The position numbers and the translations under genes are program-made. From the NCBI GenBank assembly GCA_947628755.1, contig CANRBC010000007.1:1-64000 (forward strand): DNA of 64,000 nucleotides, written 5' to 3'. The notes beneath the pieces were generated by a model. The model saw nothing but the letters and a program-made list of their open reading frames with translations, searched no databases and was not told the DNA's origin. Origin of the DNA: an uncultured Clostridia bacterium (lineage in GTDB: Bacteria; Bacillota; Clostridia; Lachnospirales; CAG-274). Every line of letters starts with the position of its first letter. Position 1 is the first letter of the stretch. Below, in pieces: positions 3,911 to 11,593 of the stretch.

Positions 3911-6900
3911 TTACTGGGCTGCTTCGCCTCCGCCGGAGTCGGCAGGAGCTGCGGGCGCTGCGGGAGCTGCAGGAGCGGTCTGGGCTGCAGGAGCGCTTTG
4001 CTCGGCAGGAGCTGCAGGCGTTGCAGGAGCAGTCTGAGCTGCGGGAGCTGACGGAGCTGCTACCTCTGAAGGCGGAGCGCTTTCAGCAGGAGCTGACGGA
4101 GTGCTTTCGCCTCCGGTATTCTCTCCTCCCGTATTTTCCGCAGGAGCAGTATTTTCATTGCTTTGGGTCTGCGTATTCTGACTGCTGTTTGTTGAATTGC
4201 TGCTTGAAGTTCCTGTACTCTTCTGAGAAGAGGTGGTCTTCTTCTTGGTGGTACTGCCGCTGCTTGAGCTGCTGTCGCTATATCCCGAAGAGCTTGCGAA
4301 ATATCCGCCCTTATAACCTCTGTGGCTTGTACAGTAATCGCCTACTGAGGCGGTATCGAACCAGTCTGTAACAGAAGGGCAGCCCATTCTGCTGTTGGCT
4401 CTCTTGCCGGATATTTTACATACCTTTATTTTTTCAACGCCATCGGGTTTAACAAACTGCTTTACCTCAAGTCCTTTATGTACCTGTTCCATTATATTTC
4501 TCCACATACGAAGATGTACGGACTGATTTATATTATTCATGTTCTTTACAGTATCGTCGTAGCTGTCGTAGCCAAGCCATATACTTGCCACATAGTATGG
4601 CGTGTAGCCTACAAATGTAAGGTCCTTTGAATCGGTGGTAGTACCGGTCTTACCGGCTACAGGCATTTTGCTAAGCTTTGCCTGAGTACCCGTACCGTTG
4701 GTAACAACGCTTGTCATAAGGTCCGTAAGTATATAGCCTGTGGAGGGCTTAAGCACCTGCTTGCTCTCATGAGTGTTCTCGAGAAGGAGGTTGCCGTCGT
4801 GGTCAAGAACCTTATCATAGAAATAGGGCTTGAGATACTGACCGTTGTTGGCAATAGTGCCGAAGGCTGCCGCTACCTCCACCTGTGTTACGCCGTTTGT
4901 AAGTCCGCCCAGCGCAGTAGCCGCATGGTTGTCGTTTTCCAGCGTTGTGAAGCCGAAGTTCAGAAGATAGTCATAGCAAAGGTCTATACCCGTTTCTACC
5001 ATTACCTTTACGGCTATAATGTTCATAGAGTCCTTGATACCTTGTCTTATGGATACAGGACCTCGGTAGCTGTTGCCCCACCAGTTATGAGGCTCATAGC
5101 CGTCTGCGGTCTTATAGGGTTCGTCCACAATAGTTGTGGCATTTGATATTTTGCCCATATCAAGAGCCGGAGCGTAGGCTGCCAGTATCTTGAATACAGA
5201 ACCGGGCTGTCTTGCAGAGTCCGTTGCTCTGTTGAAGGCTCTGTTTACTGTCTTTTCACCTCTGCCGCCTGCTATTGCCTTTATTTCGCCTGTATGGTAG
5301 TCGATAATAGCCATGGCTGACTGAGGCTGCTTTGTGTAAAATGCCTTGTCGGCAACTATTTTCTGATTGGCGGAAAGACCAGCTTCTATTTCAGCTCTCT
5401 TTTCCGCTACCCAACCCTCTGCGCCGGACTGTGAGCGAGCTATTTTGTTGTACTGGGAATGGGTCTGCTCTCCCGTATTGGTATCCTCTACGGAAACTCT
5501 GTAATCAATGCCTATACTGTAGGCTACCCATGGGAAATTGCTGTCGTTGTTGTATTCCTGGTCTACTATGCCCTGTATTCTCTTATCCAGATTGGAGTAT
5601 ATCTGAAGTCCGCCGTTGTATATAACATTGTTTGCCTCCTGTACAGACCAGTTGTACTTGGTCTGCAAATCCTCGGAGATTTGATTGATAAGGGCGTCCT
5701 CATAGTAGCTGTGTATATTTTCCGATTCGGCGTCCTCGCCGCTAGTGGTATCGGTTTTCTTTATTTTGGAATATACGTCCTCATTGATTGCGGCGTCGTA
5801 TTCCTCCTGCGTTATTCTGCCCTGATTGAGCATATAGTTAAGTATTATGACCTGTCTTTTCTTGTTTCCCTCGGGATTGGAACGAGGAGAATAAAGAGAC
5901 GGATTATTTGTTATACCCGCAAGGCAGGCGCACTCCGCTAATGTAAGCTCGGAGGGTTCTTTTCCGAAATAACCCTCTGCCGCTGTCTTTATACCGTTGT
6001 AGCCGTGACCAAGACCTATAGTATTGAGGTAAAGCTCCAGAATATAGTTCTTTGCTTCCTCCTTGCTGCCGAATTGGTCTGCCAGCTCCTTCTCATACTT
6101 AAGGGCAAGATACTGCTCCTTAAGCTTTGTCTTTACGGTATTTCTCGTTACCTTTGTAATGTTGTTTTTAATAAGCTGCTGAGTTATGGTAGAACCGCCC
6201 TGGAGCTGCTGACCGGAAAGTGTGGAATATACGGCTCTTGCAAAGCCCTGTATATCCACGCCGTCATGCTCATAGAATCTTTCGTCCTCTATGGCGATAA
6301 CTGCCTGCTGCATATTTTTGGGTATTTGGTCTAAGGTGACGTATTCTCTGTTTTCATCACCGTGGAGCTTGCTCAGCTCGTTGTTGTCGTTATCGTATAT
6401 TACAGAGGTATATGCGCCGGGCTTTATGCCGACTATACCCATATCGGGAATACTTCTTATTATAGCCACATATCCGCCTATAAGCACACCGCTGGCAGCA
6501 AAGCCTACCATTATAAGTACCATAAGAAGGAATGTAAGGAAAATTGAAAAGGGCTTTGAGCGCTTTTTGTTTTTCTTGCTTTTCTTAGGCTTTGCAAGGG
6601 ACTTGAAATGCTCCTTCTTTTCCTCTGCCGTCATGGAGGTCTGAGAGCCGCTGTGTGTTCTCTCTGCGTTTTGTATACTCTTGGTGCTTCTTTCCCTTAC
6701 CTCCGGCAAAGCTCCCTCGGATTTTGCAGGTAATTGCTTATCGCTTCTGATAGGAGGAAGAGCTTTGCTTTCCTCGGCTGCTGCAGCCGTAAGCGCCTCT
6801 GCTTTTCTCTGAGGCCTTTTGTCAGCTGCGCCTGACTTTATGCGAGGCGCTGACGCCTTTACGGGCTTTTTGGCTTTTTTACTTACAGGCGCTGTCCTGC

Positions 6901-7405
6901 CCTCGGTCTTGACAGCCTTTGCCTTATGCTCTGCCGCTTTGTCCTCGGCTTTGACAGTCTTTGCCTTATGCTCCGCCGCCTTGTCCTCGGTTTTAACAGC
7001 CTTTGCCTTATGCTCCGCCGCCTTGTCCTCGGTTTTTGCCTTATGCTCTGCGGCGTGAGCATCGTGGGACTTTGCCGCCGTGCTTTTTGTTTCCCCGACA
7101 TTTGCTGCCGCCTTTGCTCCGCCGGGCTTTTTCCTTGCCTTTCTTTCAACAGCTGCGCCTTCTTCGGGTATTCTGTTTACAACAGGCTTTTTATCAGCGC
7201 TTGCCTCGGCTATGTGAGCTGTCTTCGGCTCTGCCGCCTCCGAAGCGGGAGCTGCCTTTTTCCTGACAGGCTTTTTCTTCTTTACGGTATTTGTGTCCTT
7301 GCCAAAGTCAATGCCCAGGAATGTAGTTTTTTTCTTTTTCTTTTTTCTTTGCCTTTCTGCCTCTATATAAGCCGAACGGCGTCTTGTATTATCGGTTGGA
7401 TTCAT
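3911..7405 (-). CDS. Class A penicillin-binding protein (PBP1A type)
   Basis: Bifunctional peptidoglycan glycosyltransferase/transpeptidase anchored in the membrane. A very basic cytoplasmic region of about 280 residues carries about three tandem 14-aa units (KTEDKAAEHKAKAV type). One membrane helix follows (about 285-315), then the GT51 domain (EDERFYEHDG near 371, GGSTITQQL) and the transpeptidase domain (SVFK near 737, SMN, KTGTT near 915). A Cys-containing segment, a Ser/Thr/Asn/Gln-rich stretch and a Pro/Ala-rich tail end the protein. I chose the ATG at 7405 over an in-frame one 16 codons upstream because GGGAGGG precedes it at good spacing. Both termini are unusually long and low-complexity for the family. 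Confidence 0.95.
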   Translation of the reverse strand: MNPTDNTRRRSAYIEAERQRKKKKKKTTFLGIDFGKDTNTVKKKKPVRKKAAPASEAAEPKTAHIAEASADKKPVVNRIPEEGAAVERKARKKPGGAKAAANVGETKSTAAKSHDAHAAEHKAKTEDKAAEHKAKAVKTEDKAAEHKAKTVKAEDKAAEHKAKAVKTEGRTAPVSKKAKKPVKASAPRIKSGAADKRPQRKAEALTAAAAEESKALPPIRSDKQLPAKSEGALPEVRERSTKSIQNAERTHSGSQTSMTAEEKKEHFKSLAKPKKSKKNKKRSKPFSIFLTFLLMVLIMVGFAASGVLIGGYVAIIRSIPDMGIVGIKPGAYTSVIYDNDNNELSKLHGDENREYVTLDQIPKNMQQAVIAIEDERFYEHDGVDIQGFARAVYSTLSGQQLQGGSTITQQLIKNNITKVTRNTVKTKLKEQYLALKYEKELADQFGSKEEAKNYILELYLNTIGLGHGYNGIKTAAEGYFGKEPSELTLAECACLAGITNNPSLYSPRSNPEGNKKRQVIILNYMLNQGRITQEEYDAAINEDVYSKIKKTDTTSGEDAESENIHSYYEDALINQISEDLQTKYNWSVQEANNVIYNGGLQIYSNLDKRIQGIVDQEYNNDSNFPWVAYSIGIDYRVSVEDTNTGEQTHSQYNKIARSQSGAEGWVAEKRAEIEAGLSANQKIVADKAFYTKQPQSAMAIIDYHTGEIKAIAGGRGEKTVNRAFNRATDSARQPGSVFKILAAYAPALDMGKISNATTIVDEPYKTADGYEPHNWWGNSYRGPVSIRQGIKDSMNIIAVKVMVETGIDLCYDYLLNFGFTTLENDNHAATALGGLTNGVTQVEVAAAFGTIANNGQYLKPYFYDKVLDHDGNLLLENTHESKQVLKPSTGYILTDLMTSVVTNGTGTQAKLSKMPVAGKTGTTTDSKDLTFVGYTPYYVASIWLGYDSYDDTVKNMNNINQSVHLRMWRNIMEQVHKGLEVKQFVKPDGVEKIKVCKISGKRANSRMGCPSVTDWFDTASVGDYCTSHRGYKGGYFASSSGYSDSSSSSGSTTKKKTTSSQKSTGTSSSNSTNSSQNTQTQSNENTAPAENTGGENTGGESTPSAPAESAPPSEVAAPSAPAAQTAPATPAAPAEQSAPAAQTAPAAPAAPAAPADSGGGEAAQ

Positions 7406-7494
7406 ATTGCCTACCCTCCCAAATTTATAGAAAAATATTCCTTTATTATACATATATTTAAGTATGTAAACACCCTTAGTATTAATTATAGCAG

Positions 7495-7522
7495 ATATTT
7501 GTCAATATATAAAGCATAAATT
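7495..7522 (+). promoter_or_regulatory. Possible sigma-E-type promoter for yunB
   Basis: ATATT at 7495-7499 and CATAAATT at 7515-7522, 15 bp apart, approximate the mother-cell sigma-E pattern (ATATT, about 14 bp, CATACAnT) with one mismatch in the -10. The position fits yunB, a sporulation gene. A tentative call. Confidence 0.35.
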
Positions 7523-7543
7523 TTAAAAAAATGTGGTGATTTT

Positions 7544-8140
7544 ATTAAAAAACTATTATTTTTTGTTTTAATTTTATTTCTTTTGTTCATACTTACAGCC
7601 ACCCTTTGTTACAATCGTTTCGTTCTCCCTTCTGCAATAGCCGTAAGCCGTAAGTATGCCGTTGACAGAATAAACAGGGAAATATCCCATACAGTAGACG
7701 AGTGTATAACACAGCTGGATATAGATACAGATGATTTTATAAAAGAGGCGGGAGAGGACAGAGTAAACATAAATTCGTTGCTCATAAATCGCCTTTGCTC
7801 GGAGACTGCCGCAAGCCTTTCCGAAAGGCTTAGTAACCTTAAAAACGAGAGAATAGAGCTGCCCGTAGGTATTTTTTCGGGCATAGGGCTGTTCTCCAAT
7901 ATAGGCGTAAGCGTACCTGTATATCTTCAATCCATAGGAGAGGTCACAGCGGATTACGATACGGAAATGAGGTCAGGAGGCATAAATCAAGTGGCATATA
8001 TGGTGTGGCTCAATGTGGAGTGCAGGATAGAAATAGTAAATCCCCTCTGGAAAAAGGAGGTCGTTGTAAAAAGAAAAATAATGCTGTCGGATACTATACT
8101 AAAAGGCGGCATACCCGACGGATATATAATAGAACGATAA
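7544..8140 (+). CDS. yunB: Sporulation protein YunB
   Basis: Membrane-anchored sporulation protein of the YunB family, which is mother-cell expressed in Bacillus. The family pattern is clear: a short N-terminal helix, then IELPVGIFSGIGLFSNIGVS, VPVYLQSIGEVTADY, GINQVAYMVWLNVECRIEIV and a C-terminal IPDGYII segment. Usual starts leave the membrane helix truncated: the first is a TTG at 7583 without a ribosome site. An in-frame ATT at 7544, 3 bases after GGTGAT, gives a complete KKLLFFVLILFLLFIL helix. The sequence therefore suggests initiation at ATT, with 198 residues in all. It diverges from the PBP gene. Confidence 0.85.
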   Translation: MKKLLFFVLILFLLFILTATLCYNRFVLPSAIAVSRKYAVDRINREISHTVDECITQLDIDTDDFIKEAGEDRVNINSLLINRLCSETAASLSERLSNLKNERIELPVGIFSGIGLFSNIGVSVPVYLQSIGEVTADYDTEMRSGGINQVAYMVWLNVECRIEIVNPLWKKEVVVKRKIMLSDTILKGGIPDGYIIER

Positions 8141-8213
8141 AAAATCGGCATAAAAATACGCAATATCTCCGCTTTGTCTGCTTTACACATACTGTGGACA
8201 AATAATGCCATAT

Positions 8214-8242
8214 TTGACATTATTTATATAATATAGTATAAT
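8214..8242 (+). promoter_or_regulatory. Sigma-A promoter of the channel operon
   Basis: Consensus TTGACA (8214-8219) and TATAAT (8237-8242) are separated by exactly 17 bp. They lie about 50 bp upstream of the receptor-like gene, which has an AAGGAGG site. This gives the three-gene channel operon its own vegetative promoter. Confidence 0.85.
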
Positions 8243-8291
8243 ATATGCAGATATTGAAAGCTGTAAAATTAAAAAAAAGGAGGTATTTTTT

Positions 8292-9398
8292 ATGCAGGAA
8301 AACAAAAATAAAGCGCCTTTCAGAGTGACGTTCCATGAGCATGCAAGACTTGCCATTTACTTTAGCGCAGTAGCTATTATTTCTATAATTTATCTGAGCT
8401 TTGCAGTATCATCTCTCTATAAGTCCAAGGCAAAGGATGACAGCAGATGGGAAAACTGGCAGCACTACAACGACCCCGAAAGCGTACAGCTTATAGAAGA
8501 GAGAAGCGTAAACGCAACTCCCGTAACTGTAGGCACATATTTTGAAAACATAAGAGAAATGAGTATAAAAAACTCTACATTCAGAGTAGAGCTTGTGGTA
8601 TGGTTCAAATGGAAGGGAGATCCTGAGCTGGATATGGCAAATCACATAAGGGTATACAGAGGCACTATAAACAAGTATACCATTGTGGAGGAGCAGCACA
8701 AGGGCGAGGATCACTACCAGAGAGCCCAGATGGACGTAACCGTAAACGAGGGCTTTGACACTACAAGATTTCCCCTTGGCTCTTATGCTTTAAAGGTATA
8801 TATAGAGCCTACATACTCCATAGACAGAGTTAAATTCATAGCCGATGAGAAAAGCGATATGAACGAGGCTTATGACCTTCCGGGATATGTTCTTATGAGA
8901 TATGACACAGGTATACACAATATTATATATGACACAAACTACGGCGATCCCGATATGGAGGGAAAAAAGGCAGCCAATACGGAGCATCTTACAAGACTTG
9001 AAATAACAAGAAAAGGCTTCGGCACGTATGCCAAGTGCTTCATAGCTCTTATAGGCACGCTTACATGGATATTCATAGTAATGTACATAAATACATATCA
9101 CAAAGTAGACCCGTTGGGCATGATACCCGCCGCTTTATTCGGTACTGTTACCAATATTACGGTAGGCGCAAGTATGCTTCCCGATACGCTTGGTCTCGGA
9201 CTTCTGGAGTTTGTGAATATGTGGGGCGTTATGACCATAATAGCCGGTACTGTTACGGTCATTAACGTAAACCGAATAAGAAACAAGTGGGAGGACAAGC
9301 ACTATGCCTCTAAATTTGGACGGGTTATGTTTCTGGAGATACTTTTCTTTACTGTACTGGGGCATATCATAATGCCGCTTATGGCTTGGCGTCATTGA
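8292..9398 (+). CDS. Pentameric ligand-gated ion channel-like membrane protein
   Basis: A 368-aa membrane protein. It has a helix at about 16-40, an extracytoplasmic beta-rich region (about 60-235) and four more helices. Features recalling the Cys-loop receptor superfamily are VTVGTYFENIREMSIKNSTF with VVWFKW shortly after (GLIC/ELIC-like first strands), FDTTRFPLGSYALKVYIE (the FPxDxQxL turn) and, after the first core helix, LFGTVTNITVGASMLPDT (an M2-like segment with the LP turn), then a third helix. The extra N-terminal helix is atypical for channels of known structure. A K+ channel gene follows at 31 bp. I infer a ligand sensor or channel; the ligand is unknown. A non-channel relative of the same fold is the main alternative. 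Confidence 0.6.
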   Translation: MQENKNKAPFRVTFHEHARLAIYFSAVAIISIIYLSFAVSSLYKSKAKDDSRWENWQHYNDPESVQLIEERSVNATPVTVGTYFENIREMSIKNSTFRVELVVWFKWKGDPELDMANHIRVYRGTINKYTIVEEQHKGEDHYQRAQMDVTVNEGFDTTRFPLGSYALKVYIEPTYSIDRVKFIADEKSDMNEAYDLPGYVLMRYDTGIHNIIYDTNYGDPDMEGKKAANTEHLTRLEITRKGFGTYAKCFIALIGTLTWIFIVMYINTYHKVDPLGMIPAALFGTVTNITVGASMLPDTLGLGLLEFVNMWGVMTIIAGTVTVINVNRIRNKWEDKHYASKFGRVMFLEILFFTVLGHIIMPLMAWRH

Positions 9399-9429
9399 TA
9401 TACGGCTGAAAAATAAAGGGGGATATTTT

Positions 9430-10194
9430 ATGCGGCAGGTAATTTATGATGTAATAAAACAATCCAACAGCAACGACAGAACCAACAAGCTCTATGACTA
9501 TTTTATATGTATAGTGGCATTTTTCAGTATAATTCCGCTTATGTCAAAGAGGGATTTTGAAATTTTCCATGTTATGGATACCGTAACGGTGTATATACTT
9601 TTTGCCGATTATGTATTCAGATGGATGACCTATGATCTTAGGATAAAGAAGGGGAATATGAGCTTTTTGCTCTATCCCTTTATGCCTTATTCCCTTTTAG
9701 ACCTTTTATCACTTCTCCCGTCGCTGGGACTTGTGAGCCAGAGCTTCAGGGTACTGAGGATGCTCAGAATATTTAAGATACTGAGGTATTCAAAGAGCTT
9801 CAACTATATACTCCATGCCTTTGAAAAGGAAAAGAACACTCTTTCCTCCGTGCTTATACTGGCGCTGGGCTATATATTCGTATCTGCTCTTATTATGTTT
9901 TCATACGAGCCGGAAACCTTCAGCGACTTTTTTGCCGCTTTGTATTGGGCAACTACCGCCCTTACTACCGTAGGCTATGGCGATGTATATCCCAAGACGG
10001 ATATAGGAAGACTTATAAGTATGATTTCGTCGCTGTTCGGTATAGCCGTTATAGCTCTTCCCGCAGGTATTATCACCGCCAGCTTTGTAGATGAGATAAA
10101 TATGGAAAAGGAGGCTGCTGCAGAAGCAGACGAAGGCTCTAAAATAGACCGTATTATTGAAAAGAGAATGGAGGCTGACGATGATGAACAATAA
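9430..10194 (+). CDS. Voltage-gated-type potassium channel (six-helix Kv/KvAP class)
   Basis: A 254-aa K+ channel subunit. Helices S1-S4 are followed by a pore loop and S6. S4 carries regularly spaced arginines (FRVLRMLRIFKILRYSK, about 117-133), and the selectivity filter is a canonical TTVGYGD (about 179-185) preceded by the ALYWATTALT pore helix. The glycine/proline-containing S6 (IALPAGIIT) and an acidic C-terminal tail complete the architecture. GGGGGA precedes the ATG. It lies between the receptor-like gene and an ECF-S-like gene with which it overlaps, so the three are probably co-translated. The S4 charge pattern implies voltage sensing. Confidence 0.92.
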   Translation: MRQVIYDVIKQSNSNDRTNKLYDYFICIVAFFSIIPLMSKRDFEIFHVMDTVTVYILFADYVFRWMTYDLRIKKGNMSFLLYPFMPYSLLDLLSLLPSLGLVSQSFRVLRMLRIFKILRYSKSFNYILHAFEKEKNTLSSVLILALGYIFVSALIMFSYEPETFSDFFAALYWATTALTTVGYGDVYPKTDIGRLISMISSLFGIAVIALPAGIITASFVDEINMEKEAAAEADEGSKIDRIIEKRMEADDDEQ

Positions 10195-10738
10195 ATGGCG
10201 TTACTTTATCATTATGCTTCTGGGCGTTATTATGAACGAAGGTCTAAGCCTGCTCGCCGAGCCATATCCCGTATGGCTGGACGTAAGCGGCACAGCTCTT
10301 GCCGCTATTGTGCTTGAGCCTGCGGCGGGACTTATTGTAGGTCTTGTCAACAACTTTTGCATAGCTCTTTTCAAATACGACCAGACAACTCTTATATATT
10401 ATTGCGTAAGTGCTGCCGTTGCCGTTATAGTAGGCAACATTGTAAAAAATAAAGAGGGAAAAATAACTCTGAACGGCGTGCTTTTGGCAATATTGCTTGT
10501 AATAATAGTATCTACGGCTCTTTCCTCCGCTATTACTATATGGCAGAGCGGCGGCGTATCCAATGCCGCCTTTGAACAGGTGTGGTTTGAAAGATTCAGA
10601 GCAAGGGGTATGCACCCGTATATTGCCTGTACTCTTACTACATTTATAATAAAGATATATGATACTTTGGCAACCGCAGTTATTATAGGCATTGTATATA
10701 TACTGCTGCCAAAGAAATTAAAGTATAAGCCTACCTGA
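10181..10738 (+). CDS. ECF-transporter S-component-like membrane protein
   Basis: A 185-aa protein with about five or six membrane helices. The segment VWLDVSGTALAAIVLEPAAGLIVGLVNN follows the pattern LDxxGTxxAAxxxGPxxGxxVGxxxN seen in ECF substrate-binding components and in the 5TM input domains of some sensors. I chose the ATG at 10181, with GGAGG seven bases upstream, over a TTG farther up; it overlaps the K+ channel gene by 14 bp, so coupling is likely. No EcfA/EcfT partner lies in the window. Substrate and role are unknown, and pairing with two channel-like proteins is unusual. Confidence 0.6.
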   Translation: MMNNKWRYFIIMLLGVIMNEGLSLLAEPYPVWLDVSGTALAAIVLEPAAGLIVGLVNNFCIALFKYDQTTLIYYCVSAAVAVIVGNIVKNKEGKITLNGVLLAILLVIIVSTALSSAITIWQSGGVSNAAFEQVWFERFRARGMHPYIACTLTTFIIKIYDTLATAVIIGIVYILLPKKLKYKPT

Positions 10739-10799
10739 TAAAAACAGGGCTTAATTAAAAAGGCGTGGCGTTGAAATTTGGTTTATATGAGTTGTTTAT

Positions 10800-11105
10800 C
10801 GACCCTTCAGTCAGCGCAGTTCAAAGTCTTATTATTTCAAAGGTTTTGGCTGCGCTGACAGCTTCATTGCACAGAAGAAGTATCTGACAGCCGCAGGCTG
10901 GCTTTTGCCGTAGGCAAAAGTGCTGAACCTTCTCTGAAGGGACGCCTTAGGTATATGCTTGCCAAAGTAGTTTACTTACTTTGAAAGACGATACCTGAGC
11001 TGTAGCCAATACCCCAGCCTCCCCTAGCCTTGCAATAAAACGCAACGTGTTTTATTGCAGGCGTCGGAGGGGAGGGGAACCATGCGAAGCATGGTGGAAG
11101 GGTCG
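10800..11105. mobile_element. 306-bp MITE-like element with terminal inverted repeats
   Basis: The ends are perfect 9-bp inverted repeats (CGACCCTTC at 10800-10808 and GAAGGGTCG at 11097-11105), with further similarity just outside (TTTAT/ATAAA). Inside are several hairpins: GTCAGCGCAG/CTGCGCTGAC, CTTTTGCC-GTA-GGCAAAAG and a long stem TTGCAATAAAAC/GTTTTATTGCA set within CCTCCCC/GGGGAGG. No reading frame is present. Its right end resembles the repeat at 348-482. It lies between two convergent transcripts and is probably a non-autonomous element; no transposase is in the window. Confidence 0.6.
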
Positions 11106-11159
11106 TTATAAAGTAAATAATGTTATACTAAGATAAACAAAAATTTCCCCACAAATCAA

Positions 11160-11215
11160 ATAAAGCTGCTCCATTATGACCAACCTTTTGCCGAAAAATC
11201 ATAATGGGACAGCCT
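11160..11215 (-). terminator. Terminator of the 121-aa gene
   Basis: Near-perfect arms (GCTGCTCCATTATGA paired with TCATAATGGGACAGC) about 20 bases apart lie just downstream of the minus-strand gene ending at 11228. Confidence 0.65.
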
Positions 11216-11227
11216 TTTTGACTTTAT

Positions 11228-11593
11228 TTAATTTTGTTCACACACTTCTATATTTGTAATATTGTTCAGTTCATGAGCTATGATATACTTATTTGTTTTT
11301 ATGCACACCATATTTCTGGCGTTTCTGCCGATGAACTCACCCTCGAAATTAGTATTGGCGGTAGTTGTGATTTTAATGTGCATACCTCTTTTGAAAGTAC
11401 TGCCGTGAAAATCAAGCCTATCCAGAGGGAAAAGAGCGTAGCATCTGTTCATGACCGCTGTTACGTCCTTGTTTATGGCGGAAACCTTTTTAAGTATAGA
11501 GCGTATCTTAAGTATATTGTTGATAAACCATGTTATACAAAATGCCAGAAGCGCGGCATATAAAATTTCCTCAAAAGTCAATCCGATATTCAT
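11228..11593 (-). CDS. Small membrane-anchored protein of unknown function
   Basis: A 121-aa protein I do not recognise. One N-terminal hydrophobic helix (about 8-28) is followed by a basic segment and, from about residue 68, a compact beta-rich part (GMHIKITTTANTNFEGEFIG, then CIKTNKYIIAHEL and NITNIEV). That strand pattern could be a small beta-barrel, but I cannot assign a family. GGGAGGTG precedes the ATG. A promoter-like pair (TTGCAA, TATACT) lies just upstream, so it is probably transcribed alone. Confidence 0.75.
   Translation of the reverse strand: MNIGLTFEEILYAALLAFCITWFINNILKIRSILKKVSAINKDVTAVMNRCYALFPLDRLDFHGSTFKRGMHIKITTTANTNFEGEFIGRNARNMVCIKTNKYIIAHELNNITNIEVCEQN

Follow-up and report, generated by a model that had tools for sequence, protein, structure and literature searches.

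A conserved Clostridia operon of a divergent pentameric ligand-gated ion channel, a predicted voltage-gated K+ channel and an ECF-S-like membrane protein

A 64,000-nucleotide stretch of DNA from an uncultured Clostridia bacterium, referred to here as the window, carries three membrane genes arranged head-to-tail on the forward strand. Their combination raises the question of what a relative of neurotransmitter receptors, a putative voltage-gated K+ (Kv) channel and a protein resembling ECF S components would do together in a bacterium. Taken together, the three proteins look like an integrated device by which a group of anaerobic bacteria could convert an external signal into a shift of membrane voltage. 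The reading we favour, which we regard as plausible and just short of probable, is that the operon is a membrane-potential signalling module, in which a pentameric ligand-gated ion channel (pLGIC) would act as the cation channel, the Kv channel would provide repolarisation and the third protein would be a sensor or auxiliary subunit of the Kv channel.

Operon layout and the divergent ligand-gated channel

The operon comprises open reading frames for gene 1 (368 aa; positions 8292-9398, + strand), gene 2 (254 aa; 9430-10194, +) and gene 3 (185 aa; 10181-10738, +, counted from the ATG at 10181, with a TTG at 10157 also open). The 31-bp gap between genes 1 and 2 and the 14-bp overlap between genes 2 and 3, already given in an earlier reading of the sequence alone (the sequence-only reading), are borne out by the coordinates of these frames. 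The same reading had described a perfect sigma-A promoter, and the TTGACA-N17-TATAAT element at 8214-8242 (+) is indeed the best of the region, matching at 12 of 12 positions; an AAGGAGG ribosome-binding site can be read at 8277-8283 (+). This promoter is kept upstream of gene 1, 67-79 bp off, in four related loci (L002, L003, L004 and L006; 11-12 of 12 matches), and an AGGAGG-like site also precedes gene 1 in several relatives. The gap between genes 1 and 2 in relatives is 12-68 bp, a range for junctions without an insert that excludes the L030/L046 type (with a further gene between) and L045 (with a broken Kv frame), and the overlap of genes 2 and 3 is usually 4-14 bp. A YunB sporulation gene lies upstream of the operon, and a dispersed repeat and convergent genes lie downstream. 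The intergenic sequence that follows the operon (10760-11220) consists of dispersed repeats, pieces of which match about 100 places in the organism's own genome. Elsewhere in the window, positions 3911-7453 encode a class A penicillin-binding protein with a Lys/Ala-rich N-terminal tail of about 300 residues containing imperfect KTEDKAAEHKAK repeats.

As a single sequence, gene 1 gave no relevant match in Pfam, NCBIfam or PDB; its family was reached only through profiles and fold. On this evidence gene 1 is a divergent pLGIC, an identification that we consider strong. Its relatives in Clostridia share 90-93% identity within the genus, 71-74% within the family and mostly 40-47% elsewhere; beyond Clostridia, sequences from a planctomycete (30%) and from Bacteroidota and Alphaproteobacteria (23-26%) form a bridge to known channels. 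A profile of 12 sequences (A1) reached PDB entries of GLIC and Cys-loop chimeras at E 8.1e-20, and a profile restricted to Clostridia sequences, from which the bridging sequences were excluded (A6), matched a GLIC chimera (E 1.3e-4) and GLIC itself (E 3.6e-4). The structural similarity to pLGICs on which the sequence-only reading depended was found in both fold and sequence. The AlphaFold model has a pLDDT of 68 (mostly 70-90 in the ligand domain), and its residues 71-368 matched nAChR, DeCLIC and GLIC with VIA Z scores of 18.4, 18.2 and 17.7, respectively, as well as GABA-A receptors; the VIA alignments to pLGICs cover about 280 residues at an rmsd of about 3, with Foldseek E values of about 1e-14.

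The predicted protein begins with an extra N-terminal helix, TM0 (residues 14-54 in the model; 8331-8453, +), which ends in a conserved D/E..W stretch. TM0 has a hydropathy peak at residues 17-45 and is kept across the Clostridia clade, where its outer-end sequence is conserved. Model, hydropathy and conservation therefore agree with the earlier suggestion of an additional helix, which we read as an uncleaved fifth membrane helix. Model, fold match and alignment delimit an extracellular beta-sandwich of the ligand-binding type (residues 71-241; 8502-9014, +), carrying the Pro-loop FDTTRFPLG and the pre-M1 Arg240, and a four-helix channel domain, M1-M4 (9021-9395, +), within which M2 spans 9111-9173 (+). 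The receptor-like FDTTRFPLGSYALKVYIE and the M2-like segment ending in SMLPDT that had been picked out from the sequence are both present. Residues F160-P161, W107/D110 and R240 are all kept in alignments A1 and A6, and correspond to the Pro-loop F-P core, the strand-2 Trp/Asp and the basic residue before M1 in a published list of pLGIC features (PMC549065). The alignment has no Cys pair flanking the gene 1 loop of the kind seen in animal Cys-loop receptors. An Asp after the F-P core (the aPaD signature) is very common in pLGICs and is not the basis of membership; in gene 1 it is replaced by Gly163 (FPLG versus FPxD), and other members of the clade have Asp, Glu, Ser or Gly at this position. 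The M1 proline is also absent from gene 1.

Asp273 (9108-9110) stands directly before M2, and nearly all relatives have an acidic residue at the M1-M2 junction, a conservation that fits a cation-conducting, and hence depolarising, pore as judged from sequence. Phe283 presumably occupies the 9' gate position, which is hydrophobic or aromatic in the family, with the prime numbering assigned through the alignment to GLIC and the LP motif. Because the Pro-loop Asp and the M1 Pro are both missing, the protein may gate in an atypical way or may fail to pass ions. A non-conducting protein of this kind could be a ligand-binding sensor that contacts the Kv or S-like subunit and so controls K+ efflux directly; the extra N-terminal helix could carry such contacts, and the divergence of the protein co-varies with that of its partners (see below). 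We nevertheless regard this alternative as highly improbable, given that M2 is strongly conserved and keeps what a functional pore would need, namely the acidic residue together with polar and aromatic residues along the pore. In genome G1171 the gene 1 clade is represented twice; the second pLGIC (L112) is about 30% identical, solitary and without the Asp before M2.

The voltage-gated K+ channel and its ECF-S-like partner

Gene 2 is predicted to be a six-helix voltage-gated K+ channel, based on matches to Pfam Ion_trans (1.6e-21), to Kv2.1 as the best PDB hit (4.9e-22) and to a prokaryotic voltage-gated K+ channel (2.9e-16). In common with KvAP and Kv2.1 it has S1-S6, a TVGYGD selectivity filter (9967-9984, +; VGYGD invariant in alignment A4) and an S4 voltage-sensor helix, FRVLRMLRIFKILRY (9742-9789, +), with R/K at every third residue and five charges. 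The filter was thus correctly recognised in the sequence-only reading, but the S4 that it called full proved to be shortened on alignment with solitary relatives: compared with most of its closest solitary relatives, the ECF-S-linked Kv clade lacks up to nine residues and about three charges in this helix, with 3-5 basic residues against 7-8 in the six solitary channels examined. The short S4 is confined to the linked clade among these sequences. In a tree of 35 Kv channels, every one of the 25 with a linked or fused gene 3 fell into a single clade (support 100/99), the remaining ten being solitary relatives. The clade differs from KvAP and Kv2.1 both in having an S4 shorter than that of its own solitary relatives and in always being linked or fused to an S-like protein. 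One solitary Kv channel of the neighbouring clade (L151:676-2253; 525 aa) continues without a frame break into a domain that, judged by sequence, resembles HAD-type hydrolases. The filter coding region (9970-10083) also gave a sub-threshold match to Rfam K_chan_RES, the RNA-editing signal of animal K+ channels (28.3 bits versus a threshold of 51), most likely due to protein-level similarity.

Gene 3 is, on the strength of profiles and a model, an ECF S-component-like multi-helix membrane protein. It matched NCBIfam CD3073 at 8.8e-15 (54.8 bits versus a cut-off of 180) and Pfam ECF_trnsprt with a score of 9.2 (cut-off 30.7), while its relatives reach 1e-12 to 7e-21 for CD3073 and up to 4e-7 for Pfam ECF_trnsprt / ECF-ribofla_trS. 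Its weak model (pLDDT 58) comes closest to RibU, BioY, FolT and ThiT, with S components heading the VIA list (Z 9.4). Gene 3 shares the LDxxGT..A...LEPxxGxxVG..N core with S components (CD3073 family, RibU, ThiT) and may resemble them in fold, and departs from them in scoring below the curated cut-offs and in having a K+ channel as its partner with no EcfT/A operon.

The family and fold matches could indicate that gene 3 is a conventional ECF S component taking up a micronutrient through a shared EcfAAT, with the two channels adjusting ion balance during uptake or sensing the same compound; with two EcfT genes elsewhere in the organism's own genome, an ECF module might be available for gene 3 to join. 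We consider such an importer distinctly unlikely in view of its genetic partner. Genes 2 and 3 form a single 437-aa protein in G364 (L030:8643-9956), and a second Kv/S-like fusion, 58% identical over residues 9-435 and likewise in one open frame, is present in another species (G1180; L146), which rules out a sequencing error as the source of the fusion. In every case seen, gene 3 lies next to a channel of this Kv clade. Further evidence against an importer comes from a gene-3 profile search: in several Clostridia the domain forms the N-terminal part of proteins of 696-1235 aa ending in HD domains (HD_5, 1e-29 to 1e-41; HD-GYP-like), and one of these proteins also scores above the threshold for the LytS sensor domain 5TM-5TMR_LYT. 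The use of the S-like fold in signalling proteins of the same class is our main ground for considering gene 3 a sensor or auxiliary subunit. Gene 3 has the domain in common with these LytS-type 5TM sensor/HD-domain proteins, and differs from them in standing alone or on a K+ channel, without an enzymatic output domain. S-like/HD signalling proteins were observed at L139, L140, L141, L142 and L143, some with Reg_prop/Y_Y_Y propellers.

The operon also has no ECF module, transport or vitamin gene beside gene 3, and an Rfam scan of positions 7400-11300 detected no riboswitch, K_chan_RES being its sole hit, so that riboswitch-controlled vitamin uptake was rejected. S components have an AxxxA motif in helix 1; its strict form is absent from helix 1 of gene 3. 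The likeness to a vitamin-uptake S component reported in the sequence-only reading is supported by profile hits below cut-off and by the weak model, whereas the vitamin-uptake role is unsupported, given the Kv channel as genetic partner, the signalling-protein homologues and the lack of an adjacent riboswitch or ECF module.

Conservation, variation and loss of the three genes

The trio was found in the same order in 19 genomes representing five Clostridia families, with differing flanks, and in decayed form in a sixth family. This recurrence rules out a chance neighbourhood and confirms that the genes co-occur in other genomes; the trio is a conserved operon, with strong evidence for the linkage. 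Nine of the genomes belong to the organism's own family (f1), seven to f77 (including L045, with a frame break in the Kv gene) and one each to f41, f73 and f6. The genes are uncommon: hits, some of them partial, were obtained in 9 of 48 genomes of the family, 11 of 392 of the order and 9 of 391 of the class, and in a draw of 398 genomes from the phylum the organism's own genome alone matched. No Kv channel was found beside pLGICs outside Clostridia at the loci fetched. Pairwise distances are correlated between pLGIC and Kv (r = 0.93), pLGIC and S-like protein (r = 0.90) and Kv and S-like protein (r = 0.97), with none of 2000 permutations as high; these co-varying distances fit joint inheritance, with shared species history remaining in the permutation test.

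Several genomes depart from the three-gene arrangement. In family f74 (G598 and G536) the cassette starts with a truncated pLGIC, which is followed by a second S-like gene, then Kv and the usual S-like gene, and in G536 a deletion joins the first two cassette genes (pLGIC and second S-like gene). The same four-part order occurs in G364 (f6) with the pLGIC intact. This second and more divergent S-like gene between pLGIC and Kv was seen in two families (L046:7193-7870 and L030:7919-8701), in which each channel gene then has an S-like gene of its own. Decay of the cassette was observed at L046, L047, L081 and L144: the pLGIC is truncated or a remnant in three genomes, and G464 has only a truncated S-like gene. 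Within genus g190 the pair of Kv and S-like genes lies beside murA without a pLGIC in G407, G494 and G441, while at the same site G581 has a pLGIC and G621 keeps a pLGIC remnant, which suggests loss of the receptor gene in this genus.

Overall, the Kv/S-like pair is kept with a degraded pLGIC in three genomes and with no pLGIC beside it in five. Of the three genes the pLGIC gene is the one that disappears most frequently, with the pair remaining, which speaks for a core made up of the pair and a receptor that feeds into it. The same eight genomes would also suit a system in which the pair keeps osmotic state, pH or K+ in balance, while the pLGIC acts separately as a co-regulated proton or cation sensor similar to GLIC, without any cycle of excitation and repolarisation; consistent with this, pLGICs of the clade also occur alone (L007, L112 and L113) and GLIC is the nearest solved relative by sequence. 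Against it stand the 19 genomes from five families in which the pLGIC accompanies the pair and the co-variation of their divergence, and we judge this alternative rather unlikely.

Mobile and defence-related origins were also considered. None of the three proteins had a PADLOC match, which sets aside a defence system, and a phage origin was rejected since profile A6 finds no relative in IMG/VR viral contigs. Plasmids contained only distant pLGICs (20-26% identical), mostly from Azospirillum.

A tentative mechanism and its relation to known systems

Under the membrane-potential signalling that we favour, gene 1 would form a homopentameric, probably cation-conducting, ligand-gated channel tethered by its extra N-terminal helix. 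An extracellular ligand, or pH, would open this channel, allowing cations to enter and the cell to depolarise; the putative tetrameric K+ channel of gene 2 would open in response and return the potential. The sequence-only reading had suggested such a coupling of ligand-triggered depolarisation to K+ repolarisation, and the evidence supports it in part. Gene 3, in this view, would serve the K+ channel as a sensor or accessory subunit and would import no nutrient; it may take over part of the gating, as S4 in the Kv clade carries about three charges fewer than in related channels. A more specific proposal, which we place on the unlikely side, is that of a previously undescribed kind of prokaryotic excitability unit, in which a Cys-loop-type receptor channel and a Kv channel are inherited as one operon, an ECF-S-like subunit that senses a small molecule has replaced part of the S4 of the Kv channel, and an extracellular and a second, membrane-bound ligand together shape the voltage signal.

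Gene 1 resembles the characterised channels GLIC, ELIC, DeCLIC and sTeLIC in its beta-sandwich, four membrane helices, short M3-M4 loop and acidic pre-M2 residue. It differs from them in the extra N-terminal transmembrane helix, the lack of a Pro-loop Asp and M1 Pro, its Clostridia hosts, its operon with a K+ channel and being missed by Pfam as a single sequence. The available text of Tasneem et al. 2005 (PMC549065) describes bacterial pLGIC operons with PBP-II or Cache partners, and one case beside a Na+/H+ symporter. Those predicted operons are comparable in that the pLGIC gene is accompanied by a partner that binds small molecules, but that text names no K+ channel partner, Clostridia or S-like protein; Firmicutes, Clostridia and operons likewise go unmentioned in the available portion of Jaiteh et al. 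(PMC4795631). Full-text literature searches, covering a minority of subscription journals, returned no such trio and no link between an ECF-S protein and a K+ channel, in agreement with the sequence-only reading, to which no described bacterial system with these three genes was known. All three families are known; what is new, to our knowledge, is their combination, along with the Kv/S-like fusion, the Kv clade with its short S4 and a pLGIC with five membrane helices.

If the proposed function is true, this would be the first bacterial operon known to us in which both halves of an excitable membrane, a relative of neurotransmitter receptors and a voltage-gated K+ channel, are brought together. 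The Kv/S-like fusion also suggests that K+ channels can have an auxiliary subunit of a novel type and that ECF-S-like folds can serve as sensors in the membrane. The conserved partner genes would also offer a direct handle on the biological role of bacterial pLGICs, a question that has been open since their discovery.
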